Shown here: positions 8,281 through 13,512 of the stretch, one piece after another
Layout: each line of letters starts with the position of its first letter
Numbering within the stretch: position 1 is the first letter of the stretch
NCBI RefSeq assembly: GCF_001894985.1
Contig: NZ_BCXG01000009.1
Coordinates: forward strand, 1 to 64,000
Length of the DNA stretch: 64,000 nucleotides
From: Rhodococcus tukisamuensis NBRC 100609
Lineage (GTDB): Bacteria > Actinomycetota > Actinomycetes > Mycobacteriales > Mycobacteriaceae
Direction of reading: 5' to 3'
The notes under the pieces: generated by a model
The model's input: only the letters and a program-made list of their open reading frames with translations
The model's database searches: none
What the model was told of the DNA's origin: nothing
Program-made: the position numbers and the translations under genes

Positions 8281-8357
8281 CGCGGGGTGGAGCAGCTCGG
8301 TAGCTCGCTGGGCTCATAACCCAGAGGTCGCAGGTTCAAATCCTGTCCCCGCTACCA
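8281..8357 (+). tRNA. Initiator tRNA-fMet (CAU), copy 1
   Basis: This 77-nt cloverleaf has anticodon CAT at 8315-8317 and an encoded CCA. It carries three consecutive G:C pairs at the base of the anticodon stem (GGG/CCC) and a mismatched first acceptor pair (C1 opposite U72). Both features mark initiator rather than elongator tRNA. Confidence 0.97.
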
Positions 8358-8363
8358 AAGTAC

Positions 8364-8391
8364 GAAAGCCCGGTCCTCGGACCGGGCTTTC
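8364..8391 (+). terminator. Terminator of initiator tRNA copy 1
   Basis: A 13-bp perfect hairpin, GAAAGCCCGGTCC / GGACCGGGCTTTC, with a 2-nt loop lies 6 nt after the CCA end. The identical hairpin follows copy 2. Confidence 0.85.
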
Positions 8392-8483
8392 GGCGTTTCC
8401 GGGTGCGGCCGGTCGTGGTCGGACCGGCGCCTACGGCGGGTGGTCAGGGGCACTCAGAAGTTCGTGTAGAGTAGTAAGTGCAT

Positions 8484-8560
8484 CGCGGGGTGGAGCAGCT
8501 CGGTAGCTCGCTGGGCTCATAACCCAGAGGTCGCAGGTTCAAATCCTGTCCCCGCTACCA
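8484..8560 (+). tRNA. Initiator tRNA-fMet (CAU), copy 2
   Basis: It is identical over 77 nt to the copy at 8281, with the same C1:U72 mismatch and GGG/CCC anticodon stem. It is preceded by TAGAGTAGTAAGTGCAT. It lies 126 nt after copy 1, with a complete terminator between them, so it needs its own promoter. Confidence 0.97.
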
Positions 8561-8566
8561 AAGTAC

Positions 8567-8594
8567 GAAAGCCCGGTCCTCGGACCGGGCTTTC
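8567..8594 (+). terminator. Terminator of initiator tRNA copy 2
   Basis: Same 13-bp hairpin as after copy 1, at the same distance from the tRNA end. This shows that the tRNA was duplicated together with its terminator. Confidence 0.85.
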
Positions 8595-8596
8595 GT

Positions 8597-8690
8597 CGTT
8601 CCCTGGGTGGTGAGCCCGGGCGTTTGTCGTTCCCTGGGTGGTGAGCCCGGGCGTTTGTCGTTCCCGGGGTGGTGAGCCCCGGGCTTGTGT
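8597..8690 (+). repeat. Three tandem 31-bp units downstream of tRNA copy 2
   Basis: Two identical 31-bp units (8597-8627 and 8628-8658) begin CGTTCCCTGGGTGGTGAGCC. A third diverged unit starts at 8659. A related single copy lies after tRNA copy 3 at about 9299-9330. Each unit can form a small GGGC/GCCC hairpin. The role is unknown. Confidence 0.8.
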
Positions 8691-8797
8691 GGCTTCTCGG
8701 GTCGGGCATCCGTCGTCTCTGGGGTTCTGCGGGTGGTCGGCGTAGGTTCGTTCCCGACGGACACGTTCAGTGGTCCGAAGACGAAAGGGCGGAAGCC

Positions 8798-9121
8798 GTG
8801 ATCTTCATCGTCGTCAACTTCACTGTGCGGCCCGAGTATTCGGGCAGATGGCTCGAACTGGTGCAACCGTTCACCGATGCGACCCGGGCCGAACCGGGCA
8901 ACCTGTGGTTCGACTGGTCCCGCTCGACCGAGAACCCCGACGTCTTCGTTCTGGTCGAGGCCTTCCGTGACGACGAGGCGGCCGTTGCGCACGTGCAGAG
9001 CCGGCACTTTCAGGACGCAATGCGGGACTTGAAGCCGGCACTGGTGAGCACGCCGAGAATCATCAACACGAAGATCGACGCCGCGGACTGGTCGCTGATG
9101 GGCGAGCTCGCCGTCGACTAG
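8798..9121 (+). CDS. Antibiotic-biosynthesis-monooxygenase (ABM/YgiN) domain protein
   Basis: The protein has 107 residues from GTG 8798, preceded by a purine-rich AAAGGGCGGAAG. It is a single small ferredoxin-like ABM domain. The start V-I-F-I-V-V-N-F-T-V and the central N-L-W-F-D-W-S and E-A-F-R-D-D-E-A-V/A are typical, with the conserved H at R-H-F. Relatives act as quinol monooxygenases or cofactor-free oxygenases, usually as dimers. It sits alone between initiator tRNA copies 2 and 3, apparently caught in the tRNA duplication. The substrate is unknown. A start at 8669 would extend through the tandem repeats and is unlikely. Confidence 0.85.
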   Translation: MIFIVVNFTVRPEYSGRWLELVQPFTDATRAEPGNLWFDWSRSTENPDVFVLVEAFRDDEAAVAHVQSRHFQDAMRDLKPALVSTPRIINTKIDAADWSLMGELAVD

Positions 9122-9182
9122 AGGCCCCCTCTGGGCGAGTGGTAATTGACGTCCGAAAAGTGGGCTACAGTAGTAAATGCAT

Positions 9183-9259
9183 CGCGGGGTGGAGCAGCTC
9201 GGTAGCTCGCTGGGCTCATAACCCAGAGGTCGCAGGTTCAAATCCTGTCCCCGCTACCA
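9183..9259 (+). tRNA. Initiator tRNA-fMet (CAU), copy 3
   Basis: It is identical over 77 nt to copies 1 and 2. The upstream TACAGTAGTAAATGCAT closely resembles the sequence before copy 2, so promoter and tRNA were copied together. Confidence 0.97.
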
Positions 9260-10969: not shown

Positions 10970-11077
10970 GTGGTTCTGCCCCCCTGGGAAACGGATGCGA
11001 AAGTGTGCCGGGGTCGGTCGGCATCCAGCCTAGATGTCGGGCGCGTAAATCTGCAGGGTTTGAAAACGGCGGAAGGA

Positions 11078-11108
11078 CACCGTGGCGAGGCCGGACCTCG
11101 CCGCGGTG
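11078..11108 (-). terminator. Hairpin downstream of the fadE23 3' remnant, likely the original fadE23 terminator
   Basis: A 13-bp stem (one G-T pair) with a 5-nt loop lies 21 nt beyond the duplicated fadE23 stop codon. This is where the native terminator would be before the inserted element separated the two copies. Confidence 0.6.
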
Positions 11109-11129
11109 CCCCTCGGTCGAAACGGGCGT

Positions 11130-11224
11130 TGCTACTTCAGCTCGGACGACGACTTGCCGAGGATTCGGCGGGCGACGATGAGCTGCTGGATCTGCTGCGT
11201 GCCCTCGACGATGTCGAGGATCTT
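11130..11224 (-). repeat. Left attachment-site-like copy: stranded 3' end of fadE23
   Basis: It encodes on the minus strand the last 31 codons of FadE23, including the catalytic-Glu motif and the stop, with one change (F to V before E-G-T-Q-Q-I-Q). The frame has no start and no upstream domain. It is best read as the host half of the original attachment site. Confidence 0.85.
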
Positions 11225-11386
11225 CGTTACGTGTGGTCGCCACCTTGGGTGTTCGAATTACCGCAGGTGGCAATTGCTTTCACTGGTTTCCTGTTTTGCA
11301 TGAATGTCGACGCCAGTGACCTGAGTCGGGACCGGGCCGGGACGAGATGTGCCGGTCGACCTCGCTCGTCGGCCCCCTCTGGCAGG

Positions 11387-11821
11387 ATGCCGGGCACGGG
11401 CGCACCGACACCGGGCTGGTACCCGAACCCTGACGGCTCCGACTCGATGCGGTACTGGGACGGCCAGAAGTGGACCGCCGTGCAGGCGAATGACGCACCG
11501 ACCATCCCGACGGCCCCCATCCCCGCGCCGACGCCCGCTGAGCGGGAGCCGACGAAGCGCGGCCCGAAGATCGCCGGCGGCATCGCCCGGGCGGTCGTGG
11601 CCCTCGCGGCGATGGGTGCCATGTTCGGCGGAGGCGGCGAGGATGTCGCGGATGCGCCAGCCGTGAGCGGCGGGGTGTCCGACGAGATACGGCAGGCGGC
11701 GCGGGACGCGAAGGCTGCGCCAGTGAACGCGGAGTTGCAGTGCGAGGAGTTGGCGACGGGGCAGGCTGACTCGCCGTCGACGGTGGACTTGCCGGGGCGC
11801 ATCAGGTGCGTGGCGGCCTAG
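11387..11821 (+). CDS. DUF2510 small membrane protein
   Basis: The protein has 144 residues from ATG 11387. A DUF2510 domain is at residues 6-33 (P-G-W-Y-P-N-P-D-G, then R-Y-W-D-G-Q-K-W-T). A Pro-rich linker, one membrane helix (about 65-82, G-I-A-R-A-V-V-A-L-A) and an outer tail with a single Cys follow. DUF2510 occurs at the N-terminus of many actinobacterial membrane proteins of unknown role. It is inside the element bounded by the fadE23 duplication and may be cargo. A longer upstream reading frame crosses the fadE23 remnant and is rejected. Confidence 0.7.
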   Translation: MPGTGAPTPGWYPNPDGSDSMRYWDGQKWTAVQANDAPTIPTAPIPAPTPAEREPTKRGPKIAGGIARAVVALAAMGAMFGGGGEDVADAPAVSGGVSDEIRQAARDAKAAPVNAELQCEELATGQADSPSTVDLPGRIRCVAA

Positions 11822-11859
11822 ATGCGTGCGGCCGTCCTGCCGTGTGGTTGCATTTGACG

Positions 11860-11985
11860 ATGTCGTTACGTGCGCTTTGGAAATCTATTGCTGTGGCAGT
11901 TGGCCTTGTCGTTGCCCTGTATGTGGCAGCCGCGATCCGACTGGGCAGTCCGCCGCACGCAGACAATCACCCGACGATGGTATAG
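11860..11985 (+). CDS. Tiny hydrophobic protein, possible element-borne membrane peptide
   Basis: This 41-codon frame from ATG to TAG encodes a Lys/Arg-containing start, one hydrophobic segment (residues 10-26) and a polar His/Pro-rich tail. Base composition is lower in GC than the surroundings. There is no clear ribosome site and no family match that I recognise. It lies between the DUF2510 gene and the integrase relic. Confidence 0.3.
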   Translation: MSLRALWKSIAVAVGLVVALYVAAAIRLGSPPHADNHPTMV

Positions 11986-11997
11986 GCGGACGTAGCA

Positions 11998-12288
11998 GTG
12001 TGAGGTACGTGCCGGTGCCGCCCTGGATGGCGTCGTCGTACTCGGGGTCACCTTGTTGTTGTCAGCCTTCGGCACTCCTGTGCGAGCTCGCTGATTCATG
12101 CCGGCGCGAGCGTGAAGACGCCAGAGGTCTGGACGCACCTGTGGCCCGGCGAGGATGAGCGGACCCGGCTTGCGATGGACTCCGCGCCAAGCCGCGACCG
12201 GGTCGGGACCGGCGGTGGCGAGGCTGGCTCGGATGACGAAACCGCCCCCGTCGCGGGGAACTGCGACGAGGGCGGCTTGGTGCTGTAA
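11998..12288 (+). pseudogene. Decayed tyrosine recombinase (phage-type integrase), C-terminal part
   Basis: Two frames together read like an actinobacterial integrase. Frame 0 gives R-Y-V-P-V-P-P-W-M (about 12001-12030), the strand before the catalytic core. After a frame change, frame 12064-12288 gives S-L-R-H-S-C-A-S-S-L-I-H-A-G-A-S-V-K-T, the catalytic L-R-H region, then H-L-W-P-G-E-D-E-R-T-R and a TAA at 12286. The expected x-L-G-H-A-S stretch with its His between S-V-K-T and H-L-W-P is missing, so there is an internal deletion as well as a frameshift. It cannot be active. Its end abuts the right fadE23 copy, the usual position of an integrase. Confidence 0.7.
12242..12275 (-). terminator. 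Hairpin downstream of the present fadE23 stop
   Basis: A 13-bp stem (CCGCCCCCGTCGC / GCGACGAGGGCGG, one mismatch) with an 8-nt loop lies 29 nt past the fadE23 stop, inside the integrase relic. It may serve as the replacement terminator for fadE23. Confidence 0.5.
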
Positions 12289-12301
12289 TGCTGACCTGAC
12301 C

Positions 12302-12396
12302 TGCTACTTCAGCTCGGACGACGACTTGCCGAGGATTCGGCGGGCGACGATGAGCTGCTGGATCTGCTGCGTGCCCTCGAAGATGTCGAGGATCTT
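12302..12396 (-). repeat. Right attachment-site-like copy: functional 3' end of fadE23
   Basis: 94 of 95 positions match 11130-11224. It includes the fadE23 stop (TAG, complement of 12304-12306) plus two downstream bases. In 3'-end integration this side carries the copy supplied by the element. Confidence 0.85.
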
Positions 12397-13512
12397 GCTG
12401 TCGCGCGCCCACTTCTCGAGCAGGGGACGCTGCGAGTAGCCGAGGGTGCCGGCGAGCTCGACGGCCTTGAGCGAGACCGCGGTGCCGGTGCGTCCGGCCT
12501 TGGCCTTCGACATCGACGCCTCGAGCGAGTTCGGCTTCTTGTTGTCGGCCATCCATGCCGCGCGCAGCGACAGGAGGTAGGACGCCTCCCAGTCGGCCTC
12601 GAGCTGCAGGAACTCGGCGGCCGCGGCGTGCTGGTTGTAGGCGGGGGTGTCGTAGGAGACCTCCACGCCGGCGTCGGAGAGGACCGTCCGGAGCTCCTCG
12701 AGGGCCGCGCGACCGAGGCCCACTGCCATGCCGGCGACGATCGGGCGAGTGTTGTCGAAGGTCTGCATGACCCCGGCGAAACCCTTCTCGACGTTCACCT
12801 CGGGGGTGCCGAGCAGGTTGTCCTTCGGGATCCGGCAGTCCTGCAGCAGCAGCACCGCGGTGTCGGACGCCTTGATGCCGAGCTTGTGCTCGAGCCGGGC
12901 GACGCTCAGGCCCGGAGCGTCCCGCGGGACCACGAACGACTTGATCGCGGCGCGGCCCTTGCTCTTGTCGACGCTCGCCCAGACGACGATGTGGCTGGAC
13001 CGCTCGCCGGCGGTGACGAAGATCTTCTCGCCGTTGAGCACGTACTCGTCGCCGTCGAGCACGGCGGTGGTGGTGACCGCCGCCGAGTCGGAGCCGAAAC
13101 TCGGCTCGGTGATGGCCATCGAGGCCCACACCTTGCCGAAGCGCTCGAGCTGTTCGTCGGTGGCCACGGCGGCGATCGCCGAGTTGCCCAGGCCCTGGTA
13201 CGGGATGGAGAGGGTCAGGCCCACGTCGCCCCAGCAGGTCTCGATGACGTTCATCAGCGAGGACATGTTGCCGCCGTTGGCATTTCCGATGACGCTCGGT
13301 GCGTCGCCGCGCCCGAGCGCGGCGCCGGACGCACCCGCGCCCGAGTCGTTGAGGCCCTCGACCATGGCGGCCATGGTGTCGAGTTCCTTGGGGTAGGCGT
13401 GCTCCGCGAGGTCGTACTTGCGCGAGATCGGCCGCATGATCTGCGCCGCGACCTGGTGCGCCTGGTTCGCGGAGGCTTTGAGCTTCTTGGGGAGTTCGAG
13501 GTTGATCATCAC
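12304..13512 (-). CDS. fadE23: Acyl-CoA dehydrogenase FadE23
   Basis: This 402-residue flavoenzyme of fatty acid or steroid beta-oxidation forms an enoyl-CoA. The catalytic base is E379 in D-I-F-E-G-T-Q-Q-I-Q-Q, near the C-terminus. FAD/substrate segments such as I-T-E-P-S-F-G-S-D-S and K-I-F-V-T-A-G are seen mid-protein. It follows fadE24 by 26 bp on the same strand, as Rv3140 follows Rv3139. Paired fadE genes of this type often encode the two chains of a heterotetramer. The last 31 codons lie in the 95-bp duplication, so its C-terminus may derive from an inserted element. Confidence 0.9.
   Translation of the reverse strand: MMINLELPKKLKASANQAHQVAAQIMRPISRKYDLAEHAYPKELDTMAAMVEGLNDSGAGASGAALGRGDAPSVIGNANGGNMSSLMNVIETCWGDVGLTLSIPYQGLGNSAIAAVATDEQLERFGKVWASMAITEPSFGSDSAAVTTTAVLDGDEYVLNGEKIFVTAGERSSHIVVWASVDKSKGRAAIKSFVVPRDAPGLSVARLEHKLGIKASDTAVLLLQDCRIPKDNLLGTPEVNVEKGFAGVMQTFDNTRPIVAGMAVGLGRAALEELRTVLSDAGVEVSYDTPAYNQHAAAAEFLQLEADWEASYLLSLRAAWMADNKKPNSLEASMSKAKAGRTGTAVSLKAVELAGTLGYSQRPLLEKWARDSKILDIFEGTQQIQQLIVARRILGKSSSELK

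Follow-up and report, generated by a model that had tools for sequence, protein, structure and literature searches.

The duplicated end of fadE23 and the DNA between its copies

In the window, by which we mean the whole 64-kb stretch (64,000 nucleotides) of the Rhodococcus tukisamuensis NBRC 100609 genome that was analysed, the acyl-CoA dehydrogenase gene fadE23 lies on the minus strand at 12304-13512, with an open and complete frame of 402 aa that carries the Pfam domains PF00441 and PF02770 and has its nearest named relatives in Prescottella subtropica, Rhodococcus triatomae and R. hoagii. The end of this gene is present twice, as a 95-bp direct repeat at 11130-11224 and 12302-12396 (the gene end reading on the minus strand in both), with 94 of 95 positions identical and a spacing of 1172 bp, just as had been claimed in an earlier, sequence-only reading of this DNA. 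That reading counted 31 codons plus the stop; the stop is indeed included, preceded by 30 sense codons (93 bp together) and followed by 2 bp past the stop. In the sense of the gene, the block starts at codon 373, at K-I-L-D-I-F-E, and runs through the stop. The right copy completes the intact fadE23, as was also claimed, and is the inner, attR-like attachment site beside the integrase remnant described below. The left copy stands without a gene body and is regarded as the outer, attL-like site, the same block recurring in other genomes and in a phage attP. The single mismatch between the copies changes the F of the K-I-L-D-I-F-E stretch to V in the stranded copy; since F is found at that position in all the other copies compared in frame, we read the V either as drift after selection was lost or as an element-borne variant. 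Both copies lie inside one 182-kb contig. At the inner end of the block, the right copy in the window and several relatives have the near-palindrome CCTCGA-N5-TCGAGG, which is less perfect in others and may be the core recognition site; there too is an E-G-T motif, the Glu of which we take to be the catalytic base of acyl-CoA dehydrogenases.

Beyond the stranded copy there is a hairpin at 11072-11114 (minus strand), with a folding energy of -39.5 kcal/mol for an 82-nt stretch (z -3.3, none of 200 shuffles as good), and it is probably the original terminator of fadE23, in agreement with the role that was given to it from the letters. A second hairpin, at 12239-12278 (minus strand, z -6.35), falls within the 3′ end of the integrase remnant and is probably the present terminator of fadE23, a similar one occurring at the equivalent place in the integrase 3′ end of the Rhodococcus phage Sleepyhead (z -7.12). 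From the strong integrase-end hairpin in both the window and Sleepyhead, together with the well-folding one to the left of the stranded copy, it is expected that the element probably brought a terminator along with the gene end, provided that these hairpins do terminate transcription.

Starting from the stranded copy, the interior contains an arm-like repeat pair (11327-11343, plus strand), a DUF2510 gene, a small frame and the end of an integrase. The DUF2510 protein gene (11387-11821, plus strand; PF10708, E 1.2e-8), which confirms the DUF2510 protein named by the sequence-only reading, is probable cargo beside the outer attachment site. The DUF2510 domain is common among actinobacterial proteins and is found also in 81 phage records, where the matches are confined to this short domain, with only 19% of the query covered among the matches listed. 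The small frame (11806-11985, plus strand), which that reading called a tiny membrane frame, does encode 59 aa that look membrane-like by eye, and it has no Pfam family match.

The last of the interior frames (12061-12288, plus strand) is the C-terminal remnant of a Sleepyhead-type tyrosine integrase, and its stop at 12288 falls 13 bp short of the right copy. By tblastn it aligns with residues 323-408 of Sleepyhead Int at 54% identity with a gap of 13 residues, and the search within its own genome gave E 2.4e-15. With a 61-residue piece of the remnant as query, tblastn finds matches in nine of 50,697 phage records, the best being Sleepyhead (deposited twice) at 6e-11, so that the integrase C-terminus read earlier from the letters at this place is borne out by matches to phage tyrosine integrases. 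The profile check with PF00589 that had been proposed for it came out negative, the remnant matching no Pfam and no PHROGs model; its identity therefore rests on the pairwise similarity to Sleepyhead Int in tblastn, on its frame and on its place. The remnant has no Tyr where the residue of Sleepyhead Int that is presumably the catalytic tyrosine aligns, and it consists of the C-terminal end, the full catalytic domain being absent. When the three interior frames were scanned against Pfam, DUF2510 was the sole family, with neither RepSA nor FtsK, and scanning the frames of the 1.1-kb interior against Pfam and PHROGs brought up no structural gene of a phage. It is for this lack of phage structural genes in the interior that we call the element a scar and not a prophage.

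Sleepyhead, related prophages and the genus

The closest intact relative that we found is phage Sleepyhead (NC_048782 / MK967380), whose integrase end and attP match positions 12124-12397 of the window at 72% DNA identity. The attP, which lies beside the phage integrase, agrees with R. qingshengii fadE23 at 90 of the first 91 bp from codon 373 and at 8 of the 25 bp before it. As in the window, the 30-codon fadE block of Sleepyhead adjoins int (gp38), arm-like repeats stand at similar distances and the int 3′ end contains a hairpin. Unlike the window, with its 1.2 kb and dead integrase end, Sleepyhead is a whole phage of 43.9 kb with a full integrase, and the gene beyond the block encodes a lipoprotein in Sleepyhead and a DUF2510 protein in the window. 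In PMC13313380 (June 2026), a 90/91 match of the Sleepyhead attP to the extreme 3′ end of the R. erythropolis acyl-CoA dehydrogenase gene is reported, and integration is presumed there to rebuild the end of that gene. A fadE-type site is thus on record, contrary to the sequence-only reading, in which fadE23 was not known as a target; the window relic is a fossil of an already known kind of insertion, and the site itself is not new.

Note also that gp37 of Sleepyhead (L111:3682-3906), which carries the annotation hypothetical protein, has at its C-terminus the last 30 residues of the acyl-CoA dehydrogenase of the host and is probably the attachment site and no true gene. This calls for caution in annotation, as short annotated genes beside a phage integrase can be the ends of host genes.

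Related prophage contigs of IMGVR_UViG_2744054509 (L136, L139 and L141) resemble the window in having arm-like pairs on both sides and differ from it in having an intact integrase and a lipoprotein-like frame beside the outer site; L139 and L141 both end at the fadE block, and the integrase is 89.6% identical to that of Sleepyhead. More distant phage-type users are found in genome G158, where the two copies are 53 kb apart and the integrase is 43% identical to that of Sleepyhead, and in a Corynebacterium metagenome-assembled genome (MAG; L063), where the integrase is 41% identical and an anti-repressor and a phage metallo-protease are among the genes that come next. Moreover, the viral contig 3300013824_000012 has nearly the whole of fadE23 in the piece from its start and a 30-codon copy about 47 kb further on. 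By contrast, in SamW, ReT1v-1 and L138, which have phage-type integrases, the DNA examined after the integrase gene lacks the fadE block, and hence the integrase type alone does not fix the target.

In the genus, which the nearest named relatives of fadE23 lead us to assign to the Prescottella group, the search covered six genomes including the window's own, and two copies are present in the window's genome (G000) and in G001. Those of G001 lie 9968 bp apart and have 92.5% identity over 93 columns. The integrase end beside the inner copy in G001 matches Sleepyhead Int at 76% identity over 29 residues and, in a different reading frame, at 70% over 20 more. The G001 element also contains what looks like a split transposase, in the form of two neighbouring frames (L025:11319-12836) that carry helix-turn-helix and rve domains. 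In G004, fadD is followed after 136 bp by fadE23, with one copy and no interior, and in G002, G003 and G005 there is one copy with other genes in the gap. The sequence-only reading had named relatives with a single fadE23 end and no interior, or with longer elements carrying a full integrase at this site, as what would support an insertion; G004 is of the first kind and the second was also found in relatives. A candidate integrase relic in G002 and G003, about 70 bp beside fadE23 that blastn finds common with the window, was rejected, its sequence reading as an ordinary terminator-like hairpin.

The arm-like repeats were found by scanning for GGGAC within 200 bp of the core, the pair pattern being picked after inspection. 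In Sleepyhead, the related prophage (L139/L141) and G001, pairs of CGGGAC-N5-CGGGAC flank the core on either side at a distance of 98-114 bp. The distances of the GGGAC motifs on the integrase side and on the other side are, respectively, 112 and 101 bp and 103 and 114 bp in Sleepyhead, 112/101 and 99/110 bp in the L141/L139 contigs, and 112/101 and 102/113 bp in G001. In the window they are 98 bp plus a partner with one base changed on the integrase side, and 103/114 bp on the other. The outer pair of the window, at 11327-11343, is the sole strict match in the 64-kb window, against 0.08 expected, with at least one match in 7 of 100 shuffles. The inner pair (12193-12209, plus strand, within the integrase remnant) is found with a relaxed pattern, set after that pair had been seen, which gives two matches in the window, exactly the two arm positions, against 0.39 expected, with at least two in 5 of 100 shuffles. 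These pairs are putative integrase arm sites. No such pair is present in L063 and G158 (the Corynebacterium type) or in contig L142, on the sides inspected.

Recurrence of the fadE23 end as a target

Insertion at a conserved protein-gene end with restoration of the gene is known for the integrases of phage 21 and e14 at icd and of islands at guaA; the fadE23 elements share this mode with them, the target genes and hosts being different. Two surveys, which overlap in at least one genome, were made of the use of the fadE23 end. Among 80 named fadE23 loci, four have an integrase-like stretch at most 1.3 kb from the fadE23 stop, namely those of Nocardia takedensis, Nocardia sp. CNY236, N. wallacei (a remnant) and the Corynebacterium MAG, and Amycolatopsis jejuensis in the same set has an 85-bp repeat (86%) about 6 kb away. 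It is noted that in this set L055 is without downstream DNA and several loci have little, and that, because no locus extends beyond 10 kb, the survey would not see the distal end of a large prophage. By contrast with fadE23, the control gene, the neighbouring fadE24, has no downstream duplicate of its last 93 bp in any of 73 testable loci (80 loci, 7 untestable).

In the second survey, 359 of 401 family genomes were matched and at least 10 have an element-type pair, a count that is a lower bound; the two best candidates per genome were scored. The pair is on one contig in the window's genome and in G001, G083, G236, G243, G300, G376, G388 and G158, and over two contigs in G368. Two hits were obtained in 79 of the 401 genomes. 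The 26 two-hit genomes outside the genus and group g9 comprise eight with element-type pairs, three with tandem paralogs and 15 whose hits are widely separated or fall on different contigs; among the 51 in group g9, none has two nearby hits on a single contig. Some of the hits on different contigs may be split elements, because G368 alone among them was followed. Several look-alikes were set aside: the tandem fadE23 paralogs of G041, G017 and G012 (L127, L128 and L129), about 1.25 kb apart, which mimic a duplicated end in the DNA search; the short repeats of 16-28 bp in L070, L097 and L099; a match to an integrase at a distance of 4 kb in L102; and matches in eight plasmid records, three of which were inspected, two lying within fadE-type genes and the third being unannotated, with no second copy listed.

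In seven of the eight pairs outside the genus, the alignment of the second copy covers exactly residues 373-402; in G388 it starts from residue 360 and has lower identity. Compared copy with copy, nine pairs agree at 84-92 positions of the 93-bp core and Amycolatopsis at 76, whereas over the 27 bp before codon 373 the agreement is 3-10 of 27 in all eleven pairs (the ten element pairs and Amycolatopsis). This means that the shared block starts at the same place. As a separate observation, CAGGTCA occurs directly or 1 base past the fadE23 stop, on the integrase side, in the window (12291-12303), G158, L063, G083, G243 and G368; it is common to both integrase types, with CTGGTCA as the Sleepyhead variant.

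The users are of two kinds. Besides the phage-type elements, there are three Nocardia loci (L117, L121 and L044) in which genes for an integrase, RepSA and FtsK separate fadE23 from the rest of the locus; a GntR gene is present as well in L117, and the second copy of the block was found in L117 and L121. These elements of the pSAM2 type (AICEs) resemble the window in targeting the fadE23 end and in having the integrase tail-to-tail with fadE23; they differ in having RepSA and FtsK genes and an integrase about 26-29% identical to the phage type, and they are not phages. The four full Nocardia integrases have 75-94% mutual identity and about 26-29% identity to those of Sleepyhead, G158 and L063. 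In a tree of 12 integrases the phage-type and Nocardia groups are split with full support, the Nocardia group and the Corynebacterium pair also being supported. The order among the phage types is unsure owing to long branches and make-up bias, and we therefore claim no number of independent gains. In G236, G300, G376 and G388 the integrase frames are broken or partial.

According to a 2011 survey (PMC3218068), AICEs with tyrosine integrases use tRNA 3′ ends in the vast majority of cases, the pSLS subfamily excepted. In the open-licence literature we found no record of the use of the fadE23 end by conjugative elements or in other genera. What is new here is that the site recurs and that its users are both prophages and RepSA-type conjugative elements, with distantly related integrases. 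We consider it rather likely that the 3′ end of fadE23 corresponds, among protein genes, to the tRNA attachment sites, the 30-codon block being shared by distant phage and conjugative integrases in Rhodococcus, the Prescottella group, Nocardia, Corynebacterium and perhaps Amycolatopsis, and that they are maybe drawn by the CCTCGA-N5-TCGAGG in the L-D-I-F-E codons. Such reuse provides a natural set for studying which properties suit a protein-gene end to serve as an attachment site, and the integrase/attP pair could allow single-copy integration in laboratory Rhodococcus without gene disruption.

Origin of the scar

Based on these data, the scar is very probably a dead integrative element, probably a prophage, formed by recombination of a Sleepyhead-type attP with the fadE23 3′ end and then mostly deleted. 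A temperate phage or phage-like element with a Sleepyhead-type tyrosine integrase would have recombined its attP, which would have carried its own last 30 codons, stop and terminator-like hairpin, with the fadE23 3′ end. With its own copy of the gene end in attP, the element would keep fadE23 whole and displace the host's tail and terminator. The crossover would have occurred near the inner end of the block, perhaps near codons 373-379, so that the gene would be completed by element DNA. A later deletion of most of the element would then have left the 1172-bp scar, containing both attachment sites, arm-like repeats on each side, one DUF2510 gene and the dead integrase end, and presumably no longer able to move by itself. 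Against this reading stands the near-identity of the copies around a decayed interior, which would require that the insertion was rather recent and that large deletions came after it, or else gene conversion. The lack of a profile match for the remnant and of phage structural genes in the interior, the wide occurrence of DUF2510 and the choice of the arm-like pattern after inspection, with no such pairs in L063, G158 and L142 on the sides inspected, also count against it. The site-specific insertion rebuilding fadE23 that the sequence-only reading proposed is thus supported, its testable predictions having held except for a Pfam match on the remnant.

As to the donor, which was probably a phage, it might instead be supposed that a small RepSA-type integrative conjugative element, of the sort that sits at this gene end in Nocardia, integrated by the same mechanism, and in favour of this the window retains no phage structural gene. 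We regard this as quite improbable, as the remnant is phage-like, with 54% identity to Sleepyhead Int while the Nocardia integrases have about 27%, the arm-like repeats of the window match those of Sleepyhead, and the interior frames gave DUF2510 alone, without RepSA or FtsK. That the near-identity of the copies beside a decayed interior reflects a fortuitous duplication, tandem or segmental, at the end of fadE23, or an error of assembly, with a coincidental integrase-like frame, is hardly credible, given that the remnant and the arm-like repeats are placed where site-specific insertion puts them, that the 30-codon block is repeated elsewhere with integrases between, that the fadE24 end is duplicated in none of the 73 control loci and that, as against an assembly fault, both copies share a contig.

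Turning from the preferred reading, an inserted and mostly deleted Sleepyhead-type element, to the surroundings, we note a DUF2510-like stretch elsewhere in the same genome, on contig C26 (72960-73171; L030:6961-7172), which has 79-80% DNA identity to that of the window and is separated from a tRNA-Leu gene by about 50 bp; it may mark a further old site of integration. Five more phage-integrase-like stretches, two of them short, are present in this genome on contigs C26, C10, C5, C39 and C21. Finally, the window itself has three tRNA-Met genes inside 1 kb (8281-9259), and in two of the gaps between them repeated short peptides can be seen by eye in one reading frame.
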